This document shows positions 27,406-42,792 of a DNA stretch of 48,843 bases, piece by piece; positions within the stretch are counted from its first letter, which is position 1; every line of letters begins with the position of its first letter. Made by a program: the position numbers and the translations under genes. Source of the DNA: an uncultured Clostridia bacterium (GTDB taxonomy: Bacteria; Bacillota; Clostridia; Oscillospirales; Ruminococcaceae); contig CANQNG010000014.1 of the NCBI GenBank assembly GCA_947625155.1, positions 1 to 48,843 of the forward strand, given 5' to 3'. Under the pieces are notes generated by a model. It had not been told where the DNA came from and ran no database searches. It saw only the letters and a program-made list of their open reading frames with translations.

Positions 27406-27411
27406 TACGCC

Positions 27412-27440
27412 CATGCTCCCGGAAAGGGAGCATGTTTTTT
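27412..27440 (+). terminator. Terminator of tRNA-Pro
   Basis: CATGCTCCC (27412-27420), loop GGAAA, GGGAGCATG (27426-27434), then six T. Confidence 0.92.
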
Positions 27441-27450
27441 AGGGAAATAC

Positions 27451-27479
27451 TTGATTTTTCGGGAAAGATCTGCTATAAT
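27451..27479 (+). promoter_or_regulatory. Promoter of the small membrane protein and proS operon
   Basis: TTGATT (27451-27456), 17 bases, TATAAT (27474-27479), extended -10 TGC. Confidence 0.85.
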
Positions 27480-27502
27480 GGAATAGGCAGGAGGTGAACA
27501 GC

Positions 27503-27748
27503 ATGCAGCTGGAGCTTTCACAGATCATCCGGTTTGTCGTGATGACGGTCATCGTACTGGGGCTGATCTATCTGTTTGCGGAACTGACCCCGTGGATCGC
27601 GAAGCATGTGGACAAGTGGATCGCCGACTACCGCAAAACGCATGACCCGAAACAGGACGATACCTACGGGATACGCTCGATCTACGATCTCCCCCCTGCA
27701 AAGCCGGAACAGCCGGAACAGGACGAAAAGCCTGACGACAAGGCATGA
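27503..27748 (+). CDS. Small single-pass membrane protein
   Basis: 81 residues, not recognised. One membrane helix near the N-terminus (about residues 9-31, [20 protein letters not shown]), then a charged cytoplasmic region [20 protein letters not shown] and a Pro/Glu/Lys-rich tail ([15 protein letters not shown]). A perfect Shine-Dalgarno AGGAGGTGA (27489-27497) precedes ATG 27503; the GTG inside it at 27494 is the other possible start but is less likely. It ends 23 bases before the proS start at 27772, so it shares its transcript with proS. Confidence 0.8.
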
Positions 27749-27771
27749 AAATACAGAAAGGAATAGGTTCT

Positions 27772-29214
27772 ATGGCTAAGAATGAAAAAAAGATGGTGGA
27801 TGCCATTACCCCCATGGATGAGGATTTTGCACAGTGGTACACGGACATCGTCAAAAAGGCGGAACTGATCGCCTACACCAGTGTCAAGGGCTGTATGGTC
27901 ATCCGCCCCTACGGCTATGCGATCTGGGAAAATATCCAGCGCATTCTGGACGGGATGTTCAAGGAGACCGGGCATGAAAATGTCAATATGCCGATGTTCA
28001 TCCCCGAATCTCTGCTTCAGAAAGAAAAAGACCATGTCGAGGGCTTTGCACCGGAAGTCGCATGGGTGACATACGGCGGCAATACGAAACTGGAAGAACG
28101 CCTCTGCGTGCGCCCGACCTCCGAGACACTGTTCTGCGATCACTATAAGGACATCGTGCATTCCTATCGTGACCTGCCGAAACTCTATAACCAGTGGGTC
28201 AGCGTGGTGCGCTGGGAAAAGACGACCCGCCCGTTCCTGCGTTCCCGGGAATTTCTCTGGCAGGAGGGGCATACGATCCATGCCACGGCAGAGGAGGCGA
28301 TCGCCGAGACCGAACAGATGCTGGGCGTGTATACCCGTTTCTGCGAGGAGTCGCTTGCGATCCCGGTCGTGCAGGGGAAGAAAACCGAAAGCGACAAGTT
28401 CGCCGGGGCAGTTTCTACTTATGCGATCGAAGCCTTGATGCATGACGGCAAGGCGCTGCAGGCAGGCACATCCCACTATTTCGGGGACGGCTTTGCCAAG
28501 GCTTTCGGCATCCAGTATGCCGACAAGGACAACACCCTGAAATACCCCCACCAGACAAGCTGGGGCGTGACCACCCGCCTGATCGGTGCGATCATCATGA
28601 CCCACGGCGACAATAACGGTCTGGTGCTGCCGCCTGCGGTCGCACCCATTCAGGTCGTGATCGTTCCGGCTGCCATGCACAAAGAGGGCGTGCTGGACAA
28701 GGCACGGGAAGTCTGTGCACAGCTGAAAGCTGCAGGTATCCGTGTCAAACTGGACGAGACAGACAATTCTCCGGGGTGGAAGTTTGCGGAGTACGAAATG
28801 AAAGGCGTTCCGGTACGGCTGGAGATCGGACCGAGAGACATCGCAGCGAACCAGTGCATTTTAGCGACCCGCCACAACGGCGAAAAGACGGCAGTTTCGC
28901 TGGACGGCTTAGCAGAAAGCGTACAGGCGAAATTGCAGGAAGTGCATGACGGGCTGTATGCCGCTGCCCTCGAAAACCGGAAGGAGCGTACCTACCAGTG
29001 CCGTTCCATAGACGAGATACAGGCTGCACTTGCGGAACGGGACGGCTTTATCGAGGCAATGTGGTGCGGTGACGAAGCCTGTGAGGATGAAGTCAAGGCA
29101 CAGACCGGGGCAGGTTCCCGGTGCATCCCCTTGGAACAGAAGCACATTGCCGACACCTGTGTTTGCTGCGGCAAGCCCGCTAAGTGCATGGTGCTTTGGG
29201 GGAAGGCATATTGA
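27772..29214 (+). CDS. proS: Prolyl-tRNA synthetase, type 3 (short, archaeal-like)
   Basis: 480 residues, the usual size of ProS3, with no editing insertion domain. It charges tRNA-Pro. Class II motifs are [13 protein letters not shown] (near 108-120) and [24 protein letters not shown] (two pieces of motif 2, near residues 145-168), and motif 3 lies in [18 protein letters not shown]. The C-terminal anticodon domain includes [10 protein letters not shown]. It ends with a Cys-rich region ([18 protein letters not shown]) typical of this type. I start at ATG 27772 (MAKNEKK); the frame opens earlier, at 27745, with less support. The stop codon overlaps the next start (TGATG). Confidence 0.95.
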
Positions 29215-30428
29215 TGGCAGCGAAAGCCCTGCGGCTGGCAGGGGCAGTGCTTGCCGCTGCCCTGCTGACGGGATGCGCCGCCGGAAAAGAAACGGAACAC
29301 AGGAACATCACCGAAATTTTTCCGACAGAAGCAGTCCCTCTCACGCCGGAAAACAGCATCGTGCCGGAAGAGACCGTTCCGGCAGATGCACCGTCTACGG
29401 CGGCAGATATGACCCTTGACGAGAAACTGCACCAGATGTTCATTGTCACACCGGAAGCCCTGACGGGGTATTCACAGGTGACACAGTTCGGGGATGCCTC
29501 CCGGACGGCATTCAGCAAGCACCCGGTGGGCGGACTGATCTATTTTTCCGGCAATCTGGAGACTGCGGAACAGACACAGGAAATGCTTTCCGGTATGCAG
29601 GCATTTGCAAGATCTGCAACGGGGCTGGGGCTGTTCCTTGCGGTCGATGAGGAGGGCGGACAGGTCGCCCGCTGCGCCGACAAACTCGGCACGACAGCCA
29701 TAGAGCCCATGCAGACCTACGGGGAACGTGGCGACGATGTGGAGGTCTTTGAGGTCGGCATGACGATCGGCAAGGACATTGGCGGACTGGGATTCAACCT
29801 CGATTTCGCCCCCGTGGCAGATGTGGATCTGAACGAGGGCAACGAACTGGGCGACCGCATTTTCAGTTCCGACCCGGAAGTCGTTTCCAAAATGGTGCAA
29901 GCCTATGTGCAGGGGCTGCAAAGTACGGGCGTTGCGGCGACCCTCAAGCATTTCCCCGGTCTTGGTGCGGAGGACGGCAATGCCCACACGGATGATAAGA
30001 TCGTCATCGAACGTTCGCTGGATCAGCTCCGGGCTTCGGAATTTGTCCCGTTTGCAGGCGGCATTGCGGCAGGGGCAGATCTCGTGATGGTCAGTCATCA
30101 GATCGTGACGGGCGTAGGCGATGACCTGCCTGCCTGCTTTTCCCCGGTGGTCTGCACCGACCTGCTGCGGGGCGAGCTGGGATTTCAGGGGCTGATCGTG
30201 ACGGATTCGCTCCAGATGAACACGATCTCCGGCAGCTATTCTTCCGGAGAAGCTGCCGTGATGGCGGTAGAAGCTGGCGTGGACCTGCTGCTGATGCCGC
30301 AGGATCTTGAGGAGGCGCTCGCAGGCTTGCAGGAAGCGGTCGAAAGCGGCAGGATCAGCGAAGAACGCATTGACGAGAGCGTGGAACGTATTCTTGCGGA
30401 GAAAGAAAAGCTCGGACTGGTGGGATGA
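29214..30428 (+). CDS. Glycoside hydrolase family 3 lipoprotein, NagZ-like
   Basis: 404 residues. A signal peptide with lipobox LLTGC anchors it outside. The GH3 N-terminal catalytic domain has MTLDEKLHQMF, VGGLIYFSGNL, DEEGGQVAR near residue 145, and KHFPGLGAEDGNAHTDDK near residue 245, the loop with the catalytic His/Asp typical of beta-N-acetylhexosaminidases. The nucleophile Asp is in VTDSLQMNTI. By family it would remove GlcNAc from muropeptides or glycans. It starts inside the proS stop codon and ends overlapping the HD-domain gene, so the genes 27503-31947 form one long operon. Confidence 0.92.
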   Translation: MAAKALRLAGAVLAAALLTGCAAGKETEHRNITEIFPTEAVPLTPENSIVPEETVPADAPSTAADMTLDEKLHQMFIVTPEALTGYSQVTQFGDASRTAFSKHPVGGLIYFSGNLETAEQTQEMLSGMQAFARSATGLGLFLAVDEEGGQVARCADKLGTTAIEPMQTYGERGDDVEVFEVGMTIGKDIGGLGFNLDFAPVADVDLNEGNELGDRIFSSDPEVVSKMVQAYVQGLQSTGVAATLKHFPGLGAEDGNAHTDDKIVIERSLDQLRASEFVPFAGGIAAGADLVMVSHQIVTGVGDDLPACFSPVVCTDLLRGELGFQGLIVTDSLQMNTISGSYSSGEAAVMAVEAGVDLLLMPQDLEEALAGLQEAVESGRISEERIDESVERILAEKEKLGLVG

Positions 30429-31024
30429 AGATGGAAAACGAACGCCTGAAACAGCAGCTCACATTTTTGTTAGAGCTTGACAAGCTGAAAAATATCTACC
30501 GGCAGACCTATGTCCTGCACGAGGACAGAGCCGAAAACGATGCCGAGCACAGTTTCCACTTAGCCATTATGGCTTGTATCTTAGCCGAACATGCCAGAGG
30601 ATCAGTCGATGTGCTGCACGTCATGAAAATGGTGCTTGTCCACGATGTGGTCGAAGTCGATGCCGGGGACACCTATGCCTATGACACCGAGGGGTACAAG
30701 ACAAAAGCAGTTCGGGAGCAGAAAGCAGCCGACCGCCTGTTTGCCCTGCTGCCGGAAGAGCAGGAACGGGAATACCGGGGGCTTTGGGAGGAATTTGAAG
30801 CCCGTGAGACACCGGAAGCGAAATTTGCCAATGCCCTTGACCGGATCCAGCCGATGCTGCTGAATTATCGGAAAGGCGGCATTTCGTGGAAAGAACGGGG
30901 CATCCACGTGGAGCAGGTCATTGCCCGGAATGCACAGGTCACAAAGGACGGGAGCGAAGCCATCGGCGAGCTTGCCCGTGAGATCACAGAAGCAGCGCTC
31001 CGGGAAGGAATGCTGCTGAGTTAG
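30425..31024 (+). CDS. HD-domain phosphohydrolase, YfbR-like
   Basis: 199 residues. HD-domain metal motif residues are visible: DAEHSFHLA (first His near residue 40), then the HD dyad in VLVHDVVEVDAGD near residue 72, and a final Asp in LDRIQPML. The YfbR/YedJ-like group cleaves 5'-deoxynucleotides; that substrate is by analogy. The start overlaps the GH3 stop codon (ATGA). The alternative start 30431 removes two residues. Confidence 0.88.
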   Translation: MKMENERLKQQLTFLLELDKLKNIYRQTYVLHEDRAENDAEHSFHLAIMACILAEHARGSVDVLHVMKMVLVHDVVEVDAGDTYAYDTEGYKTKAVREQKAADRLFALLPEEQEREYRGLWEEFEARETPEAKFANALDRIQPMLLNYRKGGISWKERGIHVEQVIARNAQVTKDGSEAIGELAREITEAALREGMLLS

Positions 31025-31037
31025 GGAGGTTTTGGTC

Positions 31038-31439
31038 ATGAAAGAATTGGAGATCGGCTGTCATGCAGAGGTCAGCGCCTACGTACATGAGTCCATGCTG
31101 GCGACCAGCGTGGAAAGCGGTTCACTGCCGGTACTGGCAACGCCCATGATGGCAGCACTGATGGAGAAAGCGGCATATCTGCTGGTCGGGAAAGCACTGG
31201 ACGAGGATGAAACGACTGTCGGCACGGCGCTGGACATCCGGCATACGGCAGCGACCGCAGCGGGTGCACTGGTGACGGCAAGGGCTGAACTGACGGCAGT
31301 CGAGGGGAGAGAGCTGACGTTTCAGGTCTCGGCTTGGGATGAAGCCGGAGAGATCGGCAGCGGCGTTCACAAGCGCTTTGTGGTGAAGGCAGAGCCGTTT
31401 TTCCAGAAGGCAGAGGCAAGGAACGGCAATGGCGCATGA
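31038..31439 (+). CDS. Hotdog-fold thioesterase-like protein
   Basis: 133 residues. Hotdog fold resembling the fluoroacetyl-CoA thioesterase (FlK) group: VLATPMMAALMEKAAYLLVG and TTVGTALDIRHTAATAAGALVTARAELTAVEG. The Thr, Glu (LMEKAA) and His (DIRHTAAT) that form the FlK active site are present. The substrate is unknown. ATG 31038 has GGGAGG 8 bases upstream; a TTG at 31032 is also in frame. It is followed by the CYTH gene, which it overlaps by 11 bases. Confidence 0.85.
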   Translation: MKELEIGCHAEVSAYVHESMLATSVESGSLPVLATPMMAALMEKAAYLLVGKALDEDETTVGTALDIRHTAATAAGALVTARAELTAVEGRELTFQVSAWDEAGEIGSGVHKRFVVKAEPFFQKAEARNGNGA

Positions 31440-31947
31440 TCTGCCGAGGGAAATAGAGCGGAAGTACCTGCTCACGTTCCCGGAACAGGCGGCAATGGCG
31501 GCAATGGAAGAAGCATCCTGTACGGAGATCTTTCAGTATTATCTGAAAGATGACGGTTCGGGCTACAGCCGTCGCATCCGGAAACGGGGCACGCCCGGCA
31601 CGGGTTGGCAGTATACCTACACTAGAAAGAAGCCGGTCGCTTTCGGGGAGCGCATCGAGCTGGAAGATGAGATCACAGCGGCGCAGTTTCAGGTGCTGAT
31701 GCAGGAACGGCTGCCGGGGGTGGACATCTGCAAAAGGCGCTGCTGTTTCACCTACCGGGGACAGCGGTTTGAGCTGGACATCTATGATCTCAGCGATGCC
31801 TATGCGACACTGGAGATCGAACTGCCCGATATGCAGACCCCGGTCACGCTGCCGCCGTTCCTTCCGGTGATACGGGAGATCACGGGGGAGAACGCATACG
31901 GGAATTTTGAACTTGCCCATACAAAATGTTTCCCGGAGGAGAGATAA
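31429..31947 (+). CDS. CYTH-domain protein (triphosphate tunnel metalloenzyme)
   Basis: 172 residues. The CYTH signature EIERKYL (ExExK) is at residues 8-14, and tunnel residues follow in SRRIRKRGT and YTYTRKKPV, ELEDEI and FELDIY and LEIEL. CYTH enzymes hydrolyse triphosphates such as PPPi, or thiamine triphosphate, and some have adenylate cyclase activity; which one cannot be told here. It is the last gene of the operon and is followed by a bidirectional hairpin at 31950. Confidence 0.9.
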   Translation: MAHDLPREIERKYLLTFPEQAAMAAMEEASCTEIFQYYLKDDGSGYSRRIRKRGTPGTGWQYTYTRKKPVAFGERIELEDEITAAQFQVLMQERLPGVDICKRRCCFTYRGQRFELDIYDLSDAYATLEIELPDMQTPVTLPPFLPVIREITGENAYGNFELAHTKCFPEER

Positions 31948-31949
31948 AC

Positions 31950-31979
31950 AGCGAGCGCCCTTTACGGACGCTCGCTTGC
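31950..31979. terminator. Hairpin between convergent operons
   Basis: AGCGAGCG (31950-31957) pairs with CGCTCGCT (31969-31976). Short T-rich sequence follows on both strands (plus TGCTTTATTC; minus GTTTATC). It may serve both the CYTH gene and iscU. Confidence 0.7.
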
Positions 31980-31980
31980 T

Positions 31981-32406
31981 TTATTCATGACGATCTTCAC
32001 ACTCGGGCACTGTCCCGACGATCGGTCCCGGGTCGATGCCCTGCCGCCGGTAGTAGTCCGACAGCGCTGCCTTGATCGCCTGTTCCGCCAGTACGGAGCA
32101 GTGTACCTTCACGGGCGGCAGTCCGTCCAGTGCTTCCATGACTGCCTTGTTGGTCAGCTGCAGGGCTTCCTCGATGCTCCTGCCCTTGATCATCTCCGTT
32201 GCCATGGAGGAGGTCGCCACCGCAGCCCCGCAGCCAAAGGTCTTGAACTTGACATCCGTGATGGTCGTGCCCTCGATCTTCAGGTACATTTTCATGATGT
32301 CGCCGCACTTGGCATTGCCGACTTCCCCAATGCCGTCCGCATCCGGGATCTCGCCGACATTGCGGGGGTTGGTGAAATGATCCATTACCTTTTCACTGTA
32401 ATTCAT
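31981..32406 (-). CDS. iscU: Fe-S cluster assembly scaffold protein, IscU/NifU type
   Basis: 141 residues. This scaffold receives sulfur from IscS and iron to build clusters for transfer to apo-proteins. The three Cys are in GNAKCGD, FGCGAAVATSS and VHCSVLAEQAI, with Asp in CGD. I start at 32406 (MNYSEKVMDHF) since GGAGA lies upstream and the family starts here; the frame extends 19 residues upstream into iscS. It lies 17 bases after the iscS stop codon and is co-transcribed with it. An IscR regulator or other isc genes are not present. Confidence 0.93.
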   Translation of the reverse strand: MNYSEKVMDHFTNPRNVGEIPDADGIGEVGNAKCGDIMKMYLKIEGTTITDVKFKTFGCGAAVATSSMATEMIKGRSIEEALQLTNKAVMEALDGLPPVKVHCSVLAEQAIKAALSDYYRRQGIDPGPIVGTVPECEDRHE

Positions 32407-32423
32407 CGTATATCTCCTTTCGG

Positions 32424-33617
32424 TCAGACGAGCCGTCTGCCTTCCTTGCAGATGGATTCCCACATGGGGGACATGGCACGCAGGCGGTCAACGACCTGCG
32501 GAATGACGGATAGTACATACGCCGCATCGTCCTTTGTGAAGTCGCTGCCCAGACTCAGCCGCAGCGAACCGTGTGCGACCTCGTGTATCAGCCCCAGTGA
32601 CAGCAGCACGTGTGACGGGTCAAGCGAACCCGACGTACATGCCGACCCCGAAGAAGCCGCAATGCCGAAATGGTCGAGCATCAGCAGCAGGCTTTCGCCC
32701 TCCACGCCGACAATGGAGACATTCACATTGCCGCAGAGACGGTGTTCCCTGTCACCGTTCAGGCGGGTCTGGTCGATCTGCAAAATGCCGTCAATGAGCA
32801 TGTCCCGCAGGGGGGTGAGTCTTGCGATCTTTTCGGGGATGCCAGCCGTGGCGATCTCCATTGCCTTGGCAAGCCCGATGATGCCCGGAACATTTTCCGT
32901 CCCGGCACGTCTGCCCATTTCCTGACCGCCGCCGTGGATGAGGTTGGGGAGCTGGATGCCCTTGCGGACGTACAGCGCTCCCACGCCCTTGGGGGCATGG
33001 AGCTTATGTCCAGAGAGGGACAGCATGTCGATATGCTGCGCTTTCACGTCAATTTCCACATTTCCCACAGCTTGTACCGCATCCGTGTGGAACAGCACCT
33101 TGTGGGCGTGGCAGATCTCCCCGATCTCCGGGATGGGCTGTATCGTGCCGATCTCGTTGTTGGCATACATGATCGTGACCAGTGCGGTATCCTCCCGGAT
33201 GGCAGCTTCCACGTCTGCCGGGTCGATCAGCCCCTTATCGCCTACAGGCAGATAGGTCACTGCAAAGCCGTGCTTTTCCAGATATTCGCAGGTGTGCAGG
33301 ACAGCATGATGCTCAAAGACACTGGTGATGATGTGCTTCTTGCCCTGTGCGGCAAGGCGGTCAGCCGTGCATTTGATCGCCCAGTTGTCGGATTCCGAAC
33401 CGCCGCCCGTGAAAAACACTTCTCCCGGCTGTGCGCCAAGACAGGCAGCCACACGGGCACGGGCATCCATGACAGCACGCTCGTTTTCTCTGCCCTTTGC
33501 GTAAATGCTGGACGGATTTCCGTAATTTGTCTGGAAATAGGGCAGCATGGCTTCGAGGACCGCATCTGAGACGGGTGTCGTTGCAGCGTTGTCTGCGTAG
33601 ATATAGCGGTGTTCCAT
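32424..33617 (-). CDS. iscS: Cysteine desulfurase
   Basis: 397 residues. PLP enzyme of the NifS/IscS group that takes sulfur from cysteine. The PLP Lys is in [14 protein letters not shown] and the catalytic Cys in [17 protein letters not shown]-terminus is [18 protein letters not shown]. Of three nearby ATGs I choose 33617, because AAAGGG sits directly before the upstream pair and leaves 9 bases here. It is transcribed with iscU from the promoter at 33650-33678. Naming as nifS would be equally correct. Confidence 0.94.
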
Positions 33618-33649
33618 TCGCATCATTCCCTTTCTGATCAATATACTAT

Positions 33650-33678
33650 AGTATACCACAATATCCCCGATAATGCAA
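33650..33678 (-). promoter_or_regulatory. Promoter of iscS-iscU
   Basis: On the minus strand TTGCAT, 17 bases, TATACT (33655-33650), extended -10 TGG. The -10 lies in a perfect 14-base palindrome TATACTATAGTATA (33642-33655) that could be an operator. Confidence 0.8.
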
Positions 33679-33694
33679 GTCTTGTTAGCCGGGT

Positions 33695-34402
33695 TTACTC
33701 CGGGCTGTTTTCCTGTTCCAGAAAAGCCGCATACAGATCAGGGCGCTTTTCCTGCGTGACACGCAGGCTCTCCGCCTGCCGCCATTTGTCAATGTTCCGG
33801 TGATGCCCGGACAGCAGCACTTCCGGAACGCCCTCCCCCTCCCAGAGTTCCGGGCGGGTATACTGCGGATATTCGAGCAGTCCGCTGAAATGGCTCTCCT
33901 CCTCAAAGGCAGAGGCATTCGGGAGTACCCCGGTACACATCCGTGCAACGGCATCCGTCAGCACCAGTGCCGGGAGTTCTCCGCCGGTCAGTACATAGTC
34001 CCCGATAGAAATTTCCTCGTCCACGATCTTGTCCAGCACACGCTGGTCTACCCCCTCATAGTGACCGCACAGCAGGAACAGCGCCGGCAGCCGGGAAAGT
34101 TCACGGGCACGCTGCTGTGTGAGCGTTTTACCCTGTGGGGAGAGATAGATCGTGTGGGGCTTTTCCGGGAGCGCAGCACAGACGGCTTCCCAGCAGCGGT
34201 ACACCGGCTCTGCCTGCATGACCATGCCCATGCCGCCCCCGAAAGGCTTGTCATCGACCCGGCGGTGCTTGTCCAGTGTGTAGTCCCGGATATTATGGCA
34301 GGTGACGGAGAGATAGCCGGCTCTGCGTGCCCGCCCGATGATGCTTTCGGAGAGGACGGCTTCACACATGTCCGGAAACAGCGTGGCGATCTCAATTTGC
34401 AT
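33695..34402 (-). CDS. trmD: tRNA (guanine(37)-N1)-methyltransferase
   Basis: 235 residues. TrmD methylates G37 next to the anticodon with S-adenosylmethionine. N-terminus [12 protein letters not shown], then [33 protein letters not shown] and [19 protein letters not shown] form the knotted SAM site. It is the last gene of the ylxM-ffh operon and overlaps rimM by 11 bases. I start at 34402; a TTG two codons upstream is in frame. The usual rplS partner is absent here. Confidence 0.95.
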
Positions 34403-34916
34403 CGTCAAACAGCCCTTTCAGCGGGCGGATGGTCATTGTTCCTCCTGCCACGTCCGTTTCCAGAATGACATCCGGGATGGCAGGGGCGAGGTATTCCTTG
34501 TGCAGTGCCTCATCACGGATCACATAGACATCATTCGCACCCGTCTGAAGCACATCTTTCAGAATGCCCCAAAGCTTTCCGGTGTCGGCATCGATCACTT
34601 GCAGCCCGATCAGATCCTGAATGAAATAGCAGCCGTCCTCCAGTTCCATGTCGTTTCTGTCAGCATACAAGATCGTGTTGCGCAGGGCTTCTGCCTGTTC
34701 ACGAGTCGTGCATCCGGCAAATTGCAGAATGACCATATTCTGCTGTACACGGGCACGCTGCACCTGCACGGCATGGCTGCCGTCCTTGTCCGTGTAGAGC
34801 ATAGCAAAGGAACACAAAAACGCCGCATCGTCACACCAGGGGTATACCTTGACCTCCCCGGCAAGACCATGGACGTTTGTGATCTTTCCAATTTCCAGAA
34901 ATCGTTTCAGTCCCAT
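34392..34916 (-). CDS. rimM: Ribosome maturation factor RimM
   Basis: 174 residues. RimM helps assemble the head of the 30S subunit through S19. N-terminal domain: FLEIGKITNVHGLAGEVKVYPWCDD. C-terminal PRC-barrel: LIGLQVIDADTGKLWGILKDVLQTGANDVYVI (shown in two pieces). It is between khpA and trmD, overlaps trmD by 11 bases and lies 4 bases after the khpA stop codon. Confidence 0.94.
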   Translation of the reverse strand: MGLKRFLEIGKITNVHGLAGEVKVYPWCDDAAFLCSFAMLYTDKDGSHAVQVQRARVQQNMVILQFAGCTTREQAEALRNTILYADRNDMELEDGCYFIQDLIGLQVIDADTGKLWGILKDVLQTGANDVYVIRDEALHKEYLAPAIPDVILETDVAGGTMTIRPLKGLFDDAN

Positions 34917-34920
34917 GCCG

Positions 34921-35154
34921 TCAGCCGATCTCCACGGTCACGCTTTCCATGCCCTTGTTGACCGCACCGGCACGGATGAGGGTGCGGACGGCTTTGGCGA
35001 TCCTGCCCTGCTTGCCAATGACACGCCCCATATCTTCTTCTGCCACGTGCAGCTGGAGTACATGCGTACCCTTTTCATCGGTATCTTCCGTGATCTCAAT
35101 GGCGGACGGGTCATCGACCAGTTCTGCCACGATCGTATACAATAATTCTTTCAT
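34921..35154 (-). CDS. khpA: KH-domain RNA-binding protein KhpA
   Basis: 77 residues. KhpA pairs with KhpB in other Firmicutes and affects cell division and RNA stability. The KH GxxG loop is GRVIGKQGRIAKAVRTLIRAG near residues 46-65 (given in parts). I start at 35154 (MKELLYTIVAEL) with AGGAGG upstream; the frame is open further upstream but has no other start of note. It sits between rpsP and rimM. Confidence 0.93.
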   Translation of the reverse strand: MKELLYTIVAELVDDPSAIEITEDTDEKGTHVLQLHVAEEDMGRVIGKQGRIAKAVRTLIRAGAVNKGMESVTVEIG

Positions 35155-35235
35155 AGTATCCTCCTGTGCGGTTTTCCCGAAAGGGAAGCAGGAGAAAGCC
35201 GTGAGCATCTGCCCTTTGCTTCCTCCCGGCATTGC

Positions 35236-35478
35236 TTACAGAATGCCTTCCTTTTTCAGGATGCCCTTTACGGAATCGGTCGGCTGTGCGCCTTTACCGA
35301 TCCAGTCCTTAGCCTTATCAGCGTCCACCTTGATCACGGTCGGCTCCTTGGTCGGGTCATAATAACCGATCTCGTCAATGCATCTGCCGTCTCTCGGGGC
35401 ACGTGCATCAGCGACAACGATACGATAGAACGGGTTCTTCTTGGCACCCATTCTTCTCAGACGGATCTTGACTGCCAT
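35236..35478 (-). CDS. rpsP: 30S ribosomal protein S16
   Basis: 80 residues, full length. Start [19 protein letters not shown], then [11 protein letters not shown] and [10 protein letters not shown], the S16 signature. A perfect AGGAGGTGA lies 6 bases before the ATG at 35478; a GTG inside it is the other frame start. It is preceded by ffh and followed by khpA. Confidence 0.97.
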
Positions 35479-35531
35479 GTGTTTCACCTCCTTGTACAGG
35501 ATCCTATTACAGCGGGGGACCGCATGTAAAC

Positions 35532-36911
35532 CTACTTTTTGCCTTTCGGCATACCGGGCATGTCGTCGAAATTCATCCCGGCAAAGGAACGCTTTGCCTG
35601 CCGCATGAAAGACCTGCCCTTTTTGCCCTTGCCGCCGAGCTTCTTCATCATCTTCTGCATCTGCTCGAACTGTTTGAGCAGGCGGTTGATGTCCTCTACT
35701 TTCGTACCGCTGCCGGCAGCGATGCGCCGCTTGCGCTTCGGGTCGATGATAGAGGGCTTGGCACGTTCGGCAGGGGTCATGGAAAGGATGATCGCCTCGA
35801 GGCGGTCAAAAGCCCGGTCGTCCAGATCCTCCTCCTTCACCTTGCTGCCGCCGGGGAACATGGAGACAATATCCTTGAGCTTGCCCATTTTCCGGATCTG
35901 TCGGATCTGGTCGAGCAGATCGTTCATGTCAAAGCGGGACTCGGTGAATTTCTTGGTGAGCTTTTCGGCTTCTTTCTGGTCAATGACGTTCTCGGCACGT
36001 TCGATGAGGGTAAGCACATCGCCCATGCCCAAAATACGGGAAGCCATCCGGGACGGGTGGAATTTCTCAAAATCATCGAGCTTTTCGCCCGTACCCACGA
36101 ATTTGATGGGCTTGCCCGTGACAGCCAGCACGGAGAGCGCCGCACCGCCGCGGGTATCGGAATCGAGCTTGGACATCAGCACGCTGTTAATGCCAATGGC
36201 ATCATCGAACGACTTTGCCACATTGACGGCATCTTGCCCGGTCATGGCATCGACTACCAGCATGATCTCATGCGGTCCGGTGGCTTCCTTGATATTCTGC
36301 AGCTCCTCCATGAGAGCGGTGTCGATATGCAGCCGTCCTGCCGTATCGAGGATCACATAGTCATGCCCGTAGTCCTTGGCATAGCGGACAGCCTGCCGGG
36401 CGATGATCACGGGGTCGATCTGTCCCATTTCAAAGACCTTGACACCGGCTCTTTCGCCGACGACCTGTAACTGCTGGATCGCTGCCGGACGGTAGATATC
36501 GCAGGCAGCAAGCATGGGTCTGTGTCCGTCAGCCTTGAGCATTTTCGCAAGTTTGGCGGCGTGGGTGGTCTTACCGGAACCCTGCAAGCCACACATCATG
36601 ATGATGGTCGGCGGCTTTGAGGCAAGTGCGAGCCGTTCGTTATCGCTGCCCATGAGGGCGACCAGTTCGTCATTGACGATCTTGATGACCTGCTGTGCGG
36701 GGGTCAGGCTGGAGAGGACTTCCTCACCGACTGCCTTTTCCGTGACACGGTTCACAAAATCCTTGACGACCTTATAGCTGACATCCGCTTCGAGGAGTGC
36801 CAGACGCACTTCACGCATGGCTTCCCTGACATCATTTTCGGTCAGCTTGCCGTGTGATCGCAGCTTCTTGAATACCTGTTCCAGCTTTTCGGAAAGTCCC
36901 TCAAAAGCCAT
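35532..36911 (-). CDS. ffh: Signal recognition particle protein Ffh
   Basis: 459 residues. Ffh binds SRP RNA and signal peptides for co-translational membrane targeting. The NG domain has [15 protein letters not shown] (near residue 107), [20 protein letters not shown] and TKLD-like [16 protein letters not shown]. The C-terminal Met-rich M domain ends [18 protein letters not shown] and MPGMPKGKK. It is the second gene after ylxM, 23 bases downstream, the usual Firmicutes pair. Confidence 0.97.
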
Positions 36912-36934
36912 GGCGTTCCCTCTTTTCCTGTATA

Positions 36935-37261
36935 TTAGAGCAGCTCCAGTCCCTGCTGTGCGAGCGTTCTGATCGTTTCGGTGTCCGGCTGTCCCTGTGC
37001 TGCGGCAAGAATGTCCTCGAGACAGTGCCGGAGCTTGCCGATGCGCTGTGCCATGCCGAGCTTTTCTTCCGCATGCCGGAGCATCTGTTCGGAGTGCCGC
37101 AGGCTGTCAAGCACTGCCTGACGAGAGATCTTTTGTATATCGGCGATCTCAGAAAGTGTGAGATCTTCGTTGTAATACAGCTCTGCCAGTTCCCGCTGCC
37201 TTTCGGTCAGAAGATCGCCGTAGCAGTCGAGCAGCAGCACGCATTGCAGATCCTTTGCCAT
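36935..37261 (-). CDS. ylxM: YlxM/p13-family DNA-binding protein
   Basis: 108 residues. Helix-turn-helix resembling sigma-70 region 4: MAKDLQCVLLLDCYGDLL, then LTERQRELAELYYNEDLTLSEIA and ISRQAVLDSLRHSEQML. YlxM is thought to modulate Ffh/FtsY; its details are unclear. I start at 37261, with GGAGGTG upstream on the minus strand, and it is first in the ylxM-ffh operon. Confidence 0.9.
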   Translation of the reverse strand: MAKDLQCVLLLDCYGDLLTERQRELAELYYNEDLTLSEIADIQKISRQAVLDSLRHSEQMLRHAEEKLGMAQRIGKLRHCLEDILAAAQGQPDTETIRTLAQQGLELL

Positions 37262-37307
37262 CGTCACACCTCCGTTTGTCAAGCAGATGAGCTTTCCGGA
37301 CTTATCC

Positions 37308-37336
37308 AGTATACCACATTTCCGCCGGAAAGTCAA
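37308..37336 (-). promoter_or_regulatory. Promoter of the ylxM-ffh operon
   Basis: On the minus strand TTGACT (37336-37331), 17 bases, TATACT (37313-37308), extended -10 TGG. Confidence 0.85.
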
Positions 37337-37380
37337 GCAGCTTGACAAATTTTTTTATTTTTGGCGGTTTGCACAAAAGA

Positions 37381-37722
37381 TCAGAAATTGCCGCCGTTCC
37401 AGCCCCAGTCGGGGGTCGCATGGTAGCTGACGTAGATGCGGTTTGCGGGGATGCCGAGGTTTTCGGTCAGGATACCGCTGATCTTTCCGGTCATGGCATC
37501 ATAAGCTGTCCCGGATGCACCGCCGTAGACCTGCACCTCGACCATGGCAGCCGGGGCATCTGAGCCCTGAAAGTAGAGGGCAGACTCCGGCGTGATGTTC
37601 ACCATCAGCCACTGTTCCGATTTGCCGGGAATGGTGGAAATGGCTTTCCCCAGTCCGGTCTTGACCGCCTGTTCCTTGTCCTTCGGAATGGCAGTGTTCG
37701 TTCTCACATGAATAAATGGCAT
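37381..37722 (-). CDS. MIF/tautomerase-family protein
   Basis: 113 residues, MPFIHVRTNTAI start with Pro2 available as the catalytic base after Met removal. The pattern QWLMVNITPESALYFQGSDAPAAMVEVQVYG and NLGIPANRIYV matches MIF-like/phenylpyruvate tautomerases. The substrate in bacteria is not known. AAGGAGG lies upstream of the ATG at 37722. The frame extends to 37749, but that part holds the ribosome site. It stands alone: a repeat copy lies upstream and the ylxM promoter downstream; I see no clear terminator in 37337-37380. Confidence 0.88.
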   Translation of the reverse strand: MPFIHVRTNTAIPKDKEQAVKTGLGKAISTIPGKSEQWLMVNITPESALYFQGSDAPAAMVEVQVYGGASGTAYDAMTGKISGILTENLGIPANRIYVSYHATPDWGWNGGNF

Positions 37723-37759
37723 AGTAATTTCCTCCTTATTTATATTCACTAACAGTTAA

Positions 37760-37884
37760 GCACGCCGACCTAAATTGCACCCTCAGTCGTGCAAGCCGAC
37801 CTTTGCGGCGTAGCCGCATTGGGAGGCACCACGGAGCCGGCAGCCTGCCGGCGGGAGGCACAACGGGTGCAGCGTCACGCTGCC
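37760..37884 (+). repeat. Modular structured repeat, copy F (most complete)
   Basis: In order: GCACG...CGTGC enclosing GCCGACCTAAATTG; core GCAAGCCGACCTTTGC, GGC-GTA-GCC, GCATTGGGAGGCACCACGG; CCGGCAG-C-CTGCCGG; CGGGAGGCACAACGGG; GCAGCG-TCA-CGCTGC. It ends exactly at the last base before the stop codon of the minus-strand CobW gene and is opposite to the flanking genes in orientation. The first 40 bases match copy E closely. Confidence 0.88.
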
Positions 37885-38847
37885 TTAGTAGAAAGTTGCA
37901 ACTTCCTGTTCCGGCGGTCCGGTCAGAATGACAGCACTGACTTCCAGAACAGGACCTTTGTTCTTGTAAAGCTTATGGCGCTTGACATGGACTGTTCCGG
38001 TCACACGCACCCATTGGCTGTTCTCCAGCTTTTTCGCATTGTCCCACTCTGCCACGAGCCAGCAGTACTGGATATCTTCCACACAGCAGGTCATGACGTG
38101 CCTGCCAGCGGCAAAGACATTCGCCGGGAATTTCGCATTCTGGGCGGCTGCCCCACGGAATGTGATGACCTTGCCGTCCCATTTGCCCGGTTCTTCCATG
38201 ATGTCCCGGTAGAACAGCGCAAAGTCCTCGTCCTTGATCTCGATCTCATCCGCTTGCATATCGAACGGCAGCGGGTCTTGGATATCATCATAGGCGACCT
38301 GTCCGTCTGTGGTCTCGTAGGCGATCTGTGTCCGCCGGCTGACAGCACGGACGATCTTGTGGAATTCGTTCTGATCCATGGCATTCAAGTCGAAACGGTT
38401 GAATACGACCAGTTCGCTAACGTTGATCTTGTCCACGACCAGACTGCGCATGTTGGCGTTGTACTGCAAAAACGTGTTGGAATCCACAAAGCACATTGCC
38501 TGATACACCGCCCAGTCCAGCGGGAGCTGTTCAAACAAGTCGTTGATCGTCCACATACCGTTGTATTCCAGAACGACACGGGTCGCACGGGCTTCTTTCC
38601 GGAGCGCTTCGAGCTTTTCGGGGGTGAAGTCTGCCTGTTCGGTCAGGACTTGCTGCACGACATTTTTGCTTGCCCAGCGGGACGGCTCGAATTCTTCCTC
38701 GCCCTCCTCACAGATCAGCAGCAGTGTGCGCTCCCCGTTGTTAAAGCGCTTGTCCTCTAACGTCTCCTGAATGAATTTCGTCTTGCCGCTTTCCAGAAAC
38801 CCGACAAACAGGTAGACTGGAATATCCTCGTTCGGCTGATTCGGCAT
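37885..38847 (-). CDS. CobW-type GTPase fused to a DUF1980/YcgQ-like C-terminal domain
   Basis: 320 residues. N-terminal P-loop GFLESGKT (residues 16-23) and the order LLLICEEGEEEFE, VVLEYNGMW and FNRFDLN fit a CobW GTPase; the CxCC metal motif of the usual family is missing. From about residue 220 a second domain, GKWDGKVITFRGAAA and GRHVMTCCVEDIQYCWLVAEW, resembles the C-terminal region of YcgQ/DUF1980 proteins. Those usually pair with CobW relatives in neighbouring genes; a fusion to one is unusual. A GAGGAGG ribosome site lies upstream. It follows the His-rich CobW gene by 14 bases, so both are one operon. Confidence 0.82.
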   Translation of the reverse strand: MPNQPNEDIPVYLFVGFLESGKTKFIQETLEDKRFNNGERTLLLICEEGEEEFEPSRWASKNVVQQVLTEQADFTPEKLEALRKEARATRVVLEYNGMWTINDLFEQLPLDWAVYQAMCFVDSNTFLQYNANMRSLVVDKINVSELVVFNRFDLNAMDQNEFHKIVRAVSRRTQIAYETTDGQVAYDDIQDPLPFDMQADEIEIKDEDFALFYRDIMEEPGKWDGKVITFRGAAAQNAKFPANVFAAGRHVMTCCVEDIQYCWLVAEWDNAKKLENSQWVRVTGTVHVKRHKLYKNKGPVLEVSAVILTGPPEQEVATFY

Positions 38848-38861
38848 GACAGTCCCTCCTC

Positions 38862-39938
38862 TTATTCAGCGTGGAAAAGCTTGGCAATGGCATCTTCTTT
38901 CAGCCCTGCACCGATCACGCACAGCCTGCCAATGGTAGCTGCGCTGCCGCTGCGGACATCCGGTGTACCGGGTACATAGTCATAATGGATCCATGTGCCG
39001 TCCGTGTTGGCAACAATGCCCTTTGCCCGGAGCACTGTGCCGTACAGTTCGGCGTTGTCAAGGGCTTCCAGAGCAGACCGGATCTCTTCCATGGTGTAGG
39101 GTCTTGCCGTTTCTGCGCCCCAGCTCTGGAATACTTCGTCTGCATGGTGGTGATGATGATGTTCGTGTTCGCCTTCATCGTGGTGATGATGATGTTCATG
39201 TTCCTCTTCATCGTGGTGGTGATGGTGTTCATGTTCCTCCTCATCATGGTGGTGATGATGTTCATGCTCCTCATCGTCATGGTGATGGTGATGATCGTGG
39301 GCAGCGGCTTCGGCAAGGAGCGCTTTCAGCTCGTCGTCAATGGTGTTCCGCTGTGTCATGGCTTCGGTGATCTGTGCGCCGGTGAGGGCATCCCAGTCGG
39401 TGGTGACGATGGGCGCTGCCGGGTTCTTCTCCCGGAGTGCGTGGATGACGGCATCCAGCTTCTCCTGCGCCATGCCCTGCGTATGCGACAGCACCAGACA
39501 GGAGGCATAGGTGATCTGGTTGTCAAAGAATTCACCGAAATTCTTCTGATACATTTTGCACTTCTTGGCATCGACAACGGTCGTGAAGCCGTCCAGCGTG
39601 ACATCTTCCATTTCTAGGTTTTGCACGGCACGGATGACATCGCTCAATTTGCCGACACCGGACGGCTCGATCAGGATCCTGTCCGGGTGGTACTGCTCCA
39701 GCACTTTCTTCAGGGCTGCCCCGAAATCGCCTACCAGAGAGCAGCAGATACAGCCGGAGTTCATCTCGGTGATCTCGATACCGGCATCTTTCAGGAAACC
39801 GCCGTCAATGCCGATCTGCCCAAATTCGTTCTCGATGAGGACGAGCTTTTCGTTCTGATAGGCTTCTGCGATCAGCTTCTTGATGAGGGTCGTCTTGCCT
39901 GCACCGAGGAAGCCGGAAAAAATGGTTATTTTTGTCAT
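38862..39938 (-). CDS. CobW/ZNG-type metallochaperone GTPase with His-rich segment
   Basis: 358 residues. P-loop GFLGAGKT (9-16), metal motif SGCICCS with Cys63, Cys65 and Cys66 (CxCC), Switch region EPSGVG near residue 91, and a C-terminal CobW domain from about residue 280. Residues 214-265 form a His-rich segment with five HEHHHHH-like units (31 His) split by DEEE. Such GTPases move zinc (or another metal) to client proteins. I start at 39938 (MTKITIFSG); the frame is open 26 codons further upstream. It is the first gene of the pair, with a promoter at 39988. Confidence 0.92.
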   Translation of the reverse strand: MTKITIFSGFLGAGKTTLIKKLIAEAYQNEKLVLIENEFGQIGIDGGFLKDAGIEITEMNSGCICCSLVGDFGAALKKVLEQYHPDRILIEPSGVGKLSDVIRAVQNLEMEDVTLDGFTTVVDAKKCKMYQKNFGEFFDNQITYASCLVLSHTQGMAQEKLDAVIHALREKNPAAPIVTTDWDALTGAQITEAMTQRNTIDDELKALLAEAAAHDHHHHHDDEEHEHHHHHDEEEHEHHHHHDEEEHEHHHHHDEGEHEHHHHHHADEVFQSWGAETARPYTMEEIRSALEALDNAELYGTVLRAKGIVANTDGTWIHYDYVPGTPDVRSGSAATIGRLCVIGAGLKEDAIAKLFHAE

Positions 39939-39987
39939 GGTCAACACTCTCTTTCTCGTAAAGTCCGCCCGTAGGGGTGTCATTCTT

Positions 39988-40016
39988 AGTATACCACTTT
40001 TTCCGGAATTTGACAA
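39988..40016 (-). promoter_or_regulatory. Promoter of the CobW pair
   Basis: On the minus strand TTGTCA (40016-40011), 17 bases, TATACT (39993-39988), extended -10 TGG. No Zur-like palindrome is obvious; a short inverted element ACACCCCTACGGG lies downstream. Confidence 0.8.
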
Positions 40017-40306
40017 GAGAAAATGAAAAAAATTTAGAATACAGTCTCATTTATGAACGTTTCTTAAATATTTTGTAAATTATCGGTGAAAATGCCAATT
40101 TTCTTTCCGCTTTGTTGTTATATAAATGAATACCTGCCAGCATGCATGTCGGCTGCTTTGGGATATACTGACTGTATAAAAACGTATGGTGTTTGCAAAG
40201 TCCCTATGTTTAGGGCATTTCTACATCATTCCGCCCATAACTGTCAGCCTGAAAAGCGAGGTTTTCTACACATTCTACAAAATTTGCGATTTCCATTTGT
40301 TGTGTA
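40017..40306. other. AT-rich divergent intergenic region
   Basis: Non-coding and AT-rich, between the divergent CobW pair and sugar-transferase gene. It contains CCCTA-TGTT-TAGGG (40202-40215), part of a CCTATGTTTAGGGCATT element (40203-40219) that recurs upstream of the membrane protein at 47671. I see no reading frame or RNA gene. Confidence 0.6.
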
Positions 40307-40335
40307 TTGACAAGGATCTGGGAATGGTGTATAAT
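40307..40335 (+). promoter_or_regulatory. Promoter of the sugar-transferase gene
   Basis: Consensus TTGACA (40307-40312), 17 bases, TATAAT (40330-40335). The leader to the start codon at 40448 is about 105 bases. Confidence 0.9.
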
Positions 40336-40447
40336 AAAAATGATCCAAGAAATATTACAAAAATGGCTAGATCCCTGTTTGGTCACTGGCAGAATGCAGC
40401 ATTCTGAAATAAGAGAAAGAGGAATATGTGTTAAGGGGGAAATGACA

Positions 40448-41176
40448 ATGTTGAAAACTGTGAATCTGGCATATAAAGAGAGTCTTGGTGAAAAGACAAA
40501 GCCAGTCATTACAGTAAGGGCCAATCCCGGGCTGCGGATGCGCTACCGCTTCCGGCAGCAGGAGACGGTCACGCTCCAGCCGAAGCCTGTCTATGAGGTG
40601 TTCAAGCGGGGCATGGATATTGCTTGCTCGGCTGCGGCGCTGGTGGTGCTGTCACCTCTGCTTGCGGCGGCATCTTTGTCGATCGTAGCGACCGATCTCG
40701 GCTCGCCGATCTATACGCAGACCCGTGTCGGCAAGGACGGCAAGCCGTTCCGGATCTATAAATTCCGCAGTATGTATCTGGATGCGGACGAACGGAAAGC
40801 GGCGCTGATGGAACAGAACGAAAGTCAGGGCGCTACTTTCAAGATGAAAGACGATCCGAGGATCACCAAAGTCGGCGCTTTTCTGAGAAAGACTTCCATT
40901 GATGAACTGCCGCAGCTCGTCAATATCCTCAAGGGCGATATGACGATCGTGGGACCAAGACCGTTTATTCCGGATGAACAGGACAAGCTCCCGGAGGACA
41001 GACTGCTCGTGAAGCCCGGTCTTTCCTGCTATTGGCAGATCGGCGGGGGCAATGACCTGCCTTTGGAGGAGCAGATCGCCTTGGACCGCAGGTACATAAA
41101 GGAACGTTCGATGTGGACGGACATCAAGATCATCTTCCGCACGGTCGCACATGTGCTGGGTGGAAAGAATTGCTGA
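40448..41176 (+). CDS. Undecaprenyl-phosphate sugar-phosphate transferase
   Basis: 242 residues, the bacterial sugar transferase domain of the PglC/WbaP/WecA-independent type. An N-terminal re-entrant helix (IACSAAALVVLSPLLAAASL, about residues 58-81) precedes the catalytic core: QTRVGKDGKPFRIYKFRSM (91-109), DELPQLVNILKGDM and IVGPRPFIP. The transferase attaches a sugar phosphate to the lipid carrier to start a surface polysaccharide. I start at ATG 40448 rather than 40442: AAGGGGG ends 8 bases before the former. The Wzz-like gene follows, with a hairpin in between. Confidence 0.92.
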   Translation: MLKTVNLAYKESLGEKTKPVITVRANPGLRMRYRFRQQETVTLQPKPVYEVFKRGMDIACSAAALVVLSPLLAAASLSIVATDLGSPIYTQTRVGKDGKPFRIYKFRSMYLDADERKAALMEQNESQGATFKMKDDPRITKVGAFLRKTSIDELPQLVNILKGDMTIVGPRPFIPDEQDKLPEDRLLVKPGLSCYWQIGGGNDLPLEEQIALDRRYIKERSMWTDIKIIFRTVAHVLGGKNC

Positions 41177-41185
41177 ATACATGGG

Positions 41186-41226
41186 ACCCGGGTGCTTCGC
41201 CCTTTTCGGAGAAGCCCCGTGTTTTG
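41186..41226 (+). terminator. Hairpin after the sugar-transferase gene
   Basis: CGGGTGCTTC pairs with GAAGCCCCG (a bulged T) around GCCCTTTTCGGA, then GTGTTTTGTGTTT. Termination is likely partial or real; the Wzz-like gene has no separate consensus promoter that I can see. Confidence 0.65.
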
Positions 41227-41271
41227 TGTTTATGTCAGGATAAATCTATTTAGAAAAACCGGAGGAGAAAC

Positions 41272-42792
41272 ATGGCAACAAAAGATGAACGTTACGTCAA
41301 TGTAACACTCAAGAACGGCGAGGACGAGGATAAGGAAGAGATCGTCATTTCCTTTTCCACATTTGGCAAGGTGCTCAAACGTTTTCTGCTGTGCTGGATC
41401 GTGACCGCACTGATCGCCGGGATCCTGATCCCTGTGTACTTTGCGATCTTCACGGCGGATAAGCACAAGAACCTGACCGCACTGGTCAGCTTCAACTACG
41501 ACGGCATCGAGGACGGCAATGCCCCTGACGGCAGCAAGTTCGACATCAACTCCATCAAAAGCCCGACCATCATCGAACAGGCGCTGACAGATCTGGGGGA
41601 ACCCTTAGAATTGGTCGAGCCGATACGGCAGAACATCCTGCCGACGGGTCTGACACCGGTCGATGCGGTCAACAAGGCGGCTGCCTATAAGACACCGCTG
41701 GAGAACGGCAACATCGCTGCCGTGCAGGAGATCTTGGATACCAAGATCTACCCGACACAGTTTCAGATCACGTTCAACTATGCGGCATCCGGACTGAGCG
41801 GCGAAAAGGCTGTCGAAGTGTTCAACAGCATCCTGAACAATTACCGTGACTACTTCTTCAAAGCCTATGGCTTTAATCAGGCGCTCGGCAGTGCCATGAC
41901 AGCGCTGGACTATACGGATTATGACTTTGCAGAAGCCGTTGATGTGTTTGACTCCACGCTGCGTTCTTTGGAGAACTATATCCGGAATCTTTCCGCAGAG
42001 GATACGACCCGTTTCCGTTCCACAGAGACCGGCTACAGCTTTGCAGATCTGTCTCAGTCTATCGAGACACTGCGCACGGTCGATCTGGACAGGATCTCGT
42101 CTTATATCATCGGGGGCAATGTGACAAGGAACCGTGACAAGCTGATCCAATACTATAATTACCGCATTGACCAGCTTTCCCGTGATTGTACCGTAGCGAA
42201 GGAGAGTTTGGCTTCTCTGGAGGCATCCATTGCGTCTTATCAGAAAGACTCCATTGTTGTCTACGGCGGCGATGGGCAGGACATCAATGAATATGTACAG
42301 GCATCGGCGGAGTATGATAACCTGATCGAAAAGAAGAATCAGACACAGAATACACTTTCCAGCAAGACACAGGAGATCCAAGAATACCAGCAGCGTATGA
42401 ATGCGCTCAAGATCGGTTCCAGTGCCAGTGAGGACAGCATTGCAGAGGCAGAAAAAGACCTGACAGTATTGAACCAGAAGATCAATACGCTGATGGAAGC
42501 AACGAATCAGACTGCCAATGAGTATTATGAGACGGTCTATCTGGCAAATTCCTATAACATCCTTGTTCCGCCCAGCACCTCCGGACTTACCACCACGACC
42601 AGTATCCTCAAGTCCGCTGCGGAGCCGATGCTGATCGCAGAGGCATTGCTCTTTGTGCTTTATCTCGGCGTTTCCTTTGTGGTCGCATTGATCGAGGAAA
42701 ACAAAAAGAAAAAGGTCTTACCTGCTGTGGCAGACGGGGACGAGCCAGAGGATGCACAGAAGGAAGATACACAGAAAACAGAAACAGAATAA
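41272..42792 (+). CDS. Chain-length determinant (Wzz)-like protein
   Basis: 506 residues. A cytoplasmic acidic N-terminus, a first helix (about 38-60, LCWIVTALIAGILIPVYFAIF), a large extracytoplasmic domain with long helices between 180 and 440, and a second helix near 450-473 (AEALLFVLYLGVSFVVALI). This is the topology of polysaccharide co-polymerases that set chain length. The C-terminal tail is charged (PEDAQKEDTQKTE). No kinase domain is attached. It would act with the sugar transferase just upstream and a ligase/polymerase elsewhere. Confidence 0.82.
   Translation: MATKDERYVNVTLKNGEDEDKEEIVISFSTFGKVLKRFLLCWIVTALIAGILIPVYFAIFTADKHKNLTALVSFNYDGIEDGNAPDGSKFDINSIKSPTIIEQALTDLGEPLELVEPIRQNILPTGLTPVDAVNKAAAYKTPLENGNIAAVQEILDTKIYPTQFQITFNYAASGLSGEKAVEVFNSILNNYRDYFFKAYGFNQALGSAMTALDYTDYDFAEAVDVFDSTLRSLENYIRNLSAEDTTRFRSTETGYSFADLSQSIETLRTVDLDRISSYIIGGNVTRNRDKLIQYYNYRIDQLSRDCTVAKESLASLEASIASYQKDSIVVYGGDGQDINEYVQASAEYDNLIEKKNQTQNTLSSKTQEIQEYQQRMNALKIGSSASEDSIAEAEKDLTVLNQKINTLMEATNQTANEYYETVYLANSYNILVPPSTSGLTTTTSILKSAAEPMLIAEALLFVLYLGVSFVVALIEENKKKKVLPAVADGDEPEDAQKEDTQKTETE

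Follow-up and report, generated by a model that had tools for sequence, protein, structure and literature searches.

A probable non-autonomous two-hairpin mobile element in a genus of gut Clostridia

Element copies at the locus

The stretch of DNA analysed here (the window) spans 48,843 nucleotides from an uncultured Clostridia bacterium and contains six copies of a structured repeat, all located between called genes. A pattern search revealed five exact cores, CCGACCTTTGC-N(2-24)-GCATTGGGAGG, at positions 1292-1326, 2899-2930, 8907-8940, 9130-9164, and 37796-37826, all on the plus strand, compared with none in 100 shuffles. The sixth copy (9030-9061, minus strand) carries a variant core, TCGCCCTTTGC...GCATTGGGCGA, in which the pairing is retained. 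A preliminary description of the locus had proposed a modular structured repeat family with at least six copies, and the five exact cores together with the paired variant bear this out.

The copy on which that description centred (37760-37884, plus strand) begins with a 5′ module, GCACGCCGACCTAAATTGCACCCTCAGTCGTGCAAG (37760-37795), in which the start of the core is partly repeated. This is followed by hairpin 1, the core CCGACCTTTGC-GGCGTAGCC-GCATTGGGAGG (37796-37826), as defined by the pattern, covariation, and folding; by a linker and hairpin 2, folded as CCGGCA-GCC-TGCCGG (37827-37851); and, from sequence and folding, by a second occurrence of the linker and a third hairpin of sequence GCAGCG-TCA-CGCTGC (37852-37883), the end of which adjoins the stop codon of a minus-strand gene at 37885. 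When the neighbouring G (37795) and C (37827) are included, hairpin 1 folds as (((..((..((((((...))))))..))..))), and a covariance model of the family (R1) matches positions 37796-37851.

The remaining copies, each matched by R1, are assembled differently. Hairpin 1, a linker, and hairpin 2 occupy 1292-1351 (plus strand), and 1352-1383 supplies another linker and the decayed remains of a third hairpin. The copy at 2899-2955 (plus strand), consisting of hairpin 1 and hairpin 2, has the top R1 score of the whole genome (74.4 bits). By eye, the other three copies form a single compound array: hairpin 1 followed by an alternative, AT-rich tail (8907-8959, plus strand) lies tail-to-tail with the variant copy, which combines a TCGCCC...GGGCGA core with hairpin 2 (9005-9061, minus strand), and the latter lies head-to-head with a copy consisting of hairpin 1, a linker, and a hairpin 2 of the GCAGCG...CGCTGC type (9130-9188, plus strand; found by both pattern and R1), preceded by its own 5′ module in the sequence at 9094-9129. 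Two details of the modules in the preliminary description were corrected by eye: the 5′ GCACG...CGTGC element is confined to 9094-9129 and 37760-37795, and the CCGGCAG/CTGCCGG module is missing from the copy at 8907, which has the AT-rich tail instead.

The copy at 9130 lies upstream of a DUF1015 gene (ATG at 9272). The DUF1015 frame is open upstream through this copy, to an ATG at 9092 (window 9092-10501). Translation of the element before DUF1015 is unlikely, because a TTGACA/TATAAT-like promoter lies between the two ATGs.

Abundance, structure, and covariation

In the genome of the window (1.96 Mb, 38 contigs, 86.5% complete), 73 places match the 125 bases of the copy at 37760-37884 at E <= 10, a few only weakly. 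R1, which was trained on 59 copies, 5 of them from the window, gave 117 matches at E <= 0.01. The preliminary description had named a lack of further copies as grounds for its refutation; within this genome, the covariance model and the single query alike contradict this. The description was also right in placing the family outside Rfam: at gathering score, the Rfam covariance models matched only a tRNA in the window, with no family for the element, and gave no match in L017, L041, L061, L066, and L074, five loci outside the window. Sub-threshold matches to the Clostridiales-2 RNA (RF02937), at least 34 bits under the threshold, adjoin four copies in the window's own genome (L002, L004, L005, and L006); RF02937 may in part cover repeats of this kind.

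Two hairpins in a fixed geometry make up the minimal unit, which is about 54-56 nt long. In most copies, hairpin 1 is interrupted by two internal 2x2 mismatches; hairpin 2 has a 6-bp stem and a triloop. On 59 distinct sequences, 98.8% of the cells of this two-hairpin structure were paired, and both sides varied, with compensatory change, in 9 of the 16 pairs. The covariation score was 0.366, compared to 0.097 (sd 0.009) for shuffled sequences, with none of 500 shuffles as high, and was at most 0.042 with the partners slid. Further pair types showed no excess (15, versus 15.7 in shuffles). Hairpin 1 was found to extend one pair beyond the stem first described: among 192 copies (counted without loci L001-L008, L120 or higher, sequence-end copies, and duplicate-flank copies), pair -1/+1 occurs as G-C in 146 copies, as T-A in 28, and as a pair of any kind in 178, versus 129.6 expected from column composition. 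A tandem G.A mismatch (CCGA..GAGG) is present in 143 of these copies and is replaced by pairs (TCGC..GCGA) in 16. The minimal unit of a relative (L041) and that of the window adopt the same predicted fold whether treated as DNA or RNA: hairpin 1, broken by two 2x2 internal loops, then a spacer and a 6-bp stem with a triloop. Other palindromic repeats are also scattered in the window's genome, for example GTCGTGAAATGCGAC (L105:2950-3050 and other loci), as are tail hairpins that lack a core.

Exact-pattern searches were preferred for mapping the distribution, because the order-wide covariance search was strictly filtered, with few candidates scored per genome (28 in the rows shown); it gave a match in 1 of 197 genomes, the window's own. 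Of 38 genomes in the genus, 15 carry the exact core, most often the window's genome (33 forward and 33 reverse). In a family-wide sample of 396 genomes, 8 of them of the same genus, the exact core was found in 5, all of this genus, and in none of the 388 genomes from 125 other genera, with a pattern that misses diverged cores. Carriers of the exact core comprise at least 78 stretches, all of which, among the matches listed, are metagenome-assembled genomes (MAGs) titled as uncultured Clostridia, uncultured Ruminococcus, or Oscillospiraceae bacterium.

Unoccupied sites and target duplications

The genomes compared are drafts, mostly MAGs. The copy at 37760-37884 is missing from a close relative, G232, relative to which this stretch is extra sequence. 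The flanks are collinear in the two genomes (window 28850-37736 and 37885-42789, at 92% and 85% identity, respectively), and the gap between them is 28 bases in G232, compared with 148 in the window, element included. Similarly, a four-core array at L102 is not found in G232, in which the flanks lie about 15 bases apart at an intact terminator-like hairpin. At the orthologue of window 3131-3172 (plus strand), the reverse is seen: G232 contains an array (L210) bounded on both sides by 42-bp direct repeats, 86% identical to each other and 81% to the window, in which sequence comparison identifies a single copy of this flank as the unoccupied target. Flanking repeats of about 49 bp (39 of 49 positions matching) surround a copy in genome G216 (L151/L061) and are single-copy in G214, and at L041 a 54-base unit lies between 44-bp repeats (43 of 44 matching) that are flush with both of its ends.

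Most copies have no clear target duplication. In an anchored test of 60 copies (omitting L067, which shares its nadC site with L017, sequence-end copies, and duplicate-flank copies), 8 exceeded the 99% level of re-paired flanks, where 0.6 were expected; four of these are in tandem arrays (L010, L066 twice, and L015), and the others are L041, L061, and, more weakly, L081 and L054. The duplications lack the fixed length by which MITEs are recognised, being 42, ~49, or 44 bp, ~5-9 bp, or not clear at all. Since the copies in nadC and hemW have only a ~5-9-bp direct repeat, a single insertion chemistry may be insufficient to account for every copy. A general short duplication equal to the right arm of hairpin 2 was considered and rejected, as it is present in few of the 53 copies tested (L067, L084, sequence-end, and duplicate-flank copies dropped): repeats of at least 7 bp numbered 7, versus 2.0 when shuffled (1 of 2000 shuffles), and the mean repeat was 4.30, versus 3.98 (51 of 2000).

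Some of these features would also fit passive spread, in which replication forks would multiply the hairpins through template switching, slippage, or gene conversion and no transposase would take part. Tandem arrays occur with periods of ~54-55, 63, 88, 111, and 113 bp, mosaics combine several palindromes, and at one orthologous site the hairpin-2 module and the core stem differ between G000 and G232, which suggests conversion or re-insertion. However, the exact ends with a flush 44-bp duplication at L041, the presence of copies at many unrelated loci, and the stereotyped two-hairpin unit across the carriers of the genus all point to an enzyme, and we regard purely passive spread as unlikely.

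A stem-loop-targeting DDE transposase of IS1182/IS1272 type is a further candidate for moving the unit. PMC5678879 describes structure-dependent insertion of IS1272 (IS1182 family) at stem-loops, with inverted repeats of 21-38 bp as targets, and paths of stem-loop duplication, in a model that leaves either no stem-loop or the whole stem-loop duplicated. The variable length of the duplications and the intact terminator-like hairpin at the G232 counterpart of the L102 site are in keeping with such a mechanism. IS1272, however, is a 1.9-kb insertion sequence with terminal inverted repeats, of which none was seen by eye in the element (ends GCCGACC... and ...CCCCGC), and no relative of it was found in a search with an approximate DUF772-like motif over 1.36 Mb made up of part of each genome. 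This explanation is considered unlikely.

Insertions within protein-coding genes

In relatives, the unit was found within the open reading frames of nadC (three genomes), hemW (two), and an LCP gene (two), and also in frame in polA, a GH31 gene, an AAA_24 (phage-type ATPase) gene, and ssb, where it lies close to the C-terminal tip. The total is 11 in-frame copies in seven gene families, counting only copies for which the host gene was confirmed by Pfam or is an orthologue of a Pfam-confirmed gene: the host family was confirmed in 9 of the 9 proteins scanned, and the remaining two are nadC orthologues. A simple and rough gene caller assigned 67 copies as 48 intergenic, 16 spanning, and 3 overlapping; 5 of its 16 spanning calls have a poor coding score on one side (L045, L071, L087, L088, and L040:6299), and neither ssb nor the AAA_24 gene was called. 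Stretches from the window's own genome showed no clear in-frame insertion in protein genes. Of their 40 clusters, 35 are intergenic; another 3 sit at edges, and the remaining 2 overlap 5′ ends that are themselves doubtful.

The nadC and hemW sites are unoccupied in many orthologues. A search of the genus recovered nadC from 36 of 38 genomes; among 30 loci its site is occupied in 3 (G214, G223, and G216; +57, +57, and +54 bases) and empty in 27. In a polA tree, G223, G214, G215, and G216 form a clade with 100/100 support, within which G215 pairs with G216 at 100/100. The nadC site of G215 is nevertheless empty, and the nadC copy must therefore have been lost, or gained more than once. For hemW (34 of 38 genomes), 2 of 30 loci are occupied and 28 are empty, with +54 bases in G216 and +96 in G214, the latter representing two tandem units, of which the second is shortened. 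For polA (33 of 38 genomes), an R1 search of 30 loci placed the unit within the gene only in G223. By eye, polA of G214 (L181) likely contains a decayed, shortened insert where G223 has the full unit. When NadC was aligned to a solved structure (1x1o), the alignment broke at the insert, with query residues 63-85 opposite four residues of the chain, and an AlphaFold prediction of NadC with the insert, from a three-sequence input, gave a pLDDT of 31.6, too low to be informative.

These insertions bear directly on whether the family consists of regulatory RNAs or terminators dispersed at gene ends. Such a function would account for the strong compensatory change and for the intergenic position in the window's genome. 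Moreover, at 14 of 167 copies a pair of promoter-like boxes follows, the -35 box beginning 15-60 nt past the core end (sequence-end and duplicate-flank copies dropped), compared to 0.6 expected at average density, a figure that understates the true expectation because promoters are intergenic. The same unit is nevertheless carried in frame in seven gene families of relatives and has no Rfam match, the junction types around copies resemble the background, and T-runs follow only some copies (by eye). A dispersed RNA or terminator family is thus very unlikely as the general explanation, since relatives carry the unit in frame in coding sequence, although some copies could still act as a terminator or regulatory RNA.

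The preliminary interpretation is partly supported. A modular structured family, absent from Rfam and mobile, was upheld; the option of a mobile element gained from the unoccupied orthologous sites, the flanking duplications, and the insertions inside genes. The statement that all copies are intergenic holds for the window, and fails for the family, which has in-frame copies in relatives, and a terminator or regulatory RNA as the unifying function did not stand. Of a DNA-packaging site, also among the options named, no sign was seen.

A CTTGAC -35 box starts a few bases from the 3′ hairpin end at L009, L045, L060, L062, L065, L083, L094, L113, and L114; an insertion preference or promoter insulation is possible.

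Doublets and gene-order breakpoints

Among 67 cores in stretches from the window's own genome, 14 head-to-head pairs were found, 12 of them at 36-37 nt and 2 at 68; 8 tail-to-tail pairs, 7 at 86-89 nt and 1 at 158; and 3 direct pairs. The family resembles REP, BIME, and REPIN sequences: it too consists of short mismatched hairpins, which lie at gene borders as doublets and mosaics, with inverted doublets at fixed spacing (the 12 of 14 pairs above), many intergenic copies, and a genus-restricted spread. A REP/REPIN system would be moved in trans by a RAYT (Y1 transposase). No match to Pfam PF01797 (RAYT/Y1) was found in the 86.5%-complete genome of the window, in a search whose control matched in 5 of 14 genomes. 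The gene could be missing because the genome is incomplete, yet it is also missing in 36 of the 38 genomes of the genus; the two that have it (L118 in G227 and L119 in G213) do not track copy number, and the exact core is absent from G227. Long target duplications, present at some copies, are not expected from Y1 chemistry. The family further differs from REP/REPIN in having copies in genes, and no GTAG or CGTC tag was seen at the core edge. Mobilization by a RAYT is accordingly highly improbable.

Gene order around the copies was compared between the window and G232. Block breaks lie at 1256/1382, 2823/3131, and 8859/9226, with an element in every gap, and the fourth element site (37760) shows simple presence versus absence. 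By comparison, none of 36 element-free junctions in collinear spans is broken (Fisher p 0.0004; p 0.009 when restricted to the 11 element-free junctions with spacers > 40 nt), in a test of one window in which 25 of the 36 junctions were compared directly and the other 11 lie in 17796-28850. A further switch without an element, at 42789/42825, falls where a G232 contig begins and cannot be judged for this reason. Copies at gene borders probably also serve as rearrangement sites, although chimeric assembly joins are possible at the synteny breaks. Gene order is largely conserved between window 9226-42789 and contig C12 of G232 (compared directly outside 17796-28850), and the left end of this stretch is an element-bearing junction. 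The genomes are drafts, with some copies near contig ends, but an assembly artefact as the source of the family as a whole is exceedingly improbable, given the identical nadC insertion in three separately assembled genomes, the reading frames that stay open across inserts, the compensatory changes in the hairpins, and the duplications with single-copy orthologues.

Relation to known elements and proposed mechanism

Palindromes that invade proteins in frame are best known from Rickettsia (RPE). Like RPE, the family described here consists of small palindromes that lie both between genes and in frame in conserved protein genes. RPE is one long stem-loop of the Rickettsia lineage, whereas two short hairpins of ~54-56 nt make up the unit in this Clostridia genus, and the long target duplications at some sites also set it against RPE. 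PMC2229807 gives a length of 105-146 bp for RPE and models it as a long stem-loop that bears terminal inverted repeats; RPE is treated as well in PMC3733652 and PMC10969869.

YPAL (RU-2) of Yersinia, as described in the same account, is an intergenic element ~168 bp long, with internal inverted repeats, and is neither A+T-rich nor bounded by TA ends; its target duplications are 3-26 bp, and its targets lie at or beside dyad symmetry (PMC2229807). The internal inverted repeats, the base composition, the lack of TA ends, the variable-length duplications, and the dyad-symmetry targets are shared by the family here, in a comparison by description rather than by sequence, whereas YPAL is longer and intergenic and the duplications here reach 42-50 bp. 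The enterobacterial small mobile repeats with reading frames, ERIC/RU-1, RU-2, and RU-3, have copies both within and between genes, according to PMC2759123 and PMC2229807; at 103-168 bp and in other hosts, they were likewise compared by description only. Unusually long target duplications are also a feature of the long-duplication subgroup of the IS1202 family (16-28 bp in PMC10132070). Members of that subgroup are full insertion sequences with a DDE transposase and terminal inverted repeats, in contrast to the unit here, which holds no gene and has longer duplications. The 42-50-bp duplications exceed the ranges cited here for both IS1202 relatives and YPAL, and point to an unusual insertion reaction. 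In open-licence literature, none of the matches listed for the 11-base core string concerned bacterial repeats, judging from titles and the starts of abstracts, and no account of the family was among the matches listed on palindromic or repeat elements of Faecalibacterium, Firmicutes, Ruminococcus, and Oscillospiraceae.

Presence and absence at orthologous sites, target duplications at some sites, and persisting in-frame gene copies show that the unit is mobile. Most probably, the copies are small non-autonomous two-hairpin mobile elements that depend on a trans-acting enzyme and have formed BIME-like mosaics in the lineage of the window. The enzyme would recognise a folded single strand, and insertion with a variable stagger would give target duplications ranging from none to ~50 bp. 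Insertions in genes would survive only where the frame is kept, in loops or linkers. In the window's lineage, the unit has probably acquired 5′ and 3′ modules, and its recombination has probably produced the head-to-head and tail-to-tail doublets and the BIME-like mosaics at gene borders. The best reading is that of a new genus-restricted, hairpin-type element with RPE-like protein entry and YPAL-like variable target duplications, distinguished by its two-hairpin unit, duplications of up to ~50 bp, in-frame insertion into core genes, and occurrence in a gut Clostridia genus. Apparently unrelated to RPE, it would add a further case of in-frame protein-invading palindromes, in gut Clostridia. 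The presence and absence of the unit in the same gene among sister species would make both its movement and the effect of the insert on proteins testable by comparison.

A bolder and doubtful proposal is that the family represents a new class of bacterial mobile hairpin, moved by an enzyme that would insert it with a 40-50-nt stagger or by target priming, perhaps by way of an RNA copy in the manner of a bacterial SINE. Such a hairpin would add in-frame peptides of ~18-19 residues to core enzymes and change gene order at gene borders within one gut genus.

The 125-base query gave no match in phage and plasmid records. Copies were observed on three viral contigs (L087, L088, and L089), two of which (L088 and L089) also carry a TCGACC...GGGAGA variant, and phages may ferry the element between hosts.
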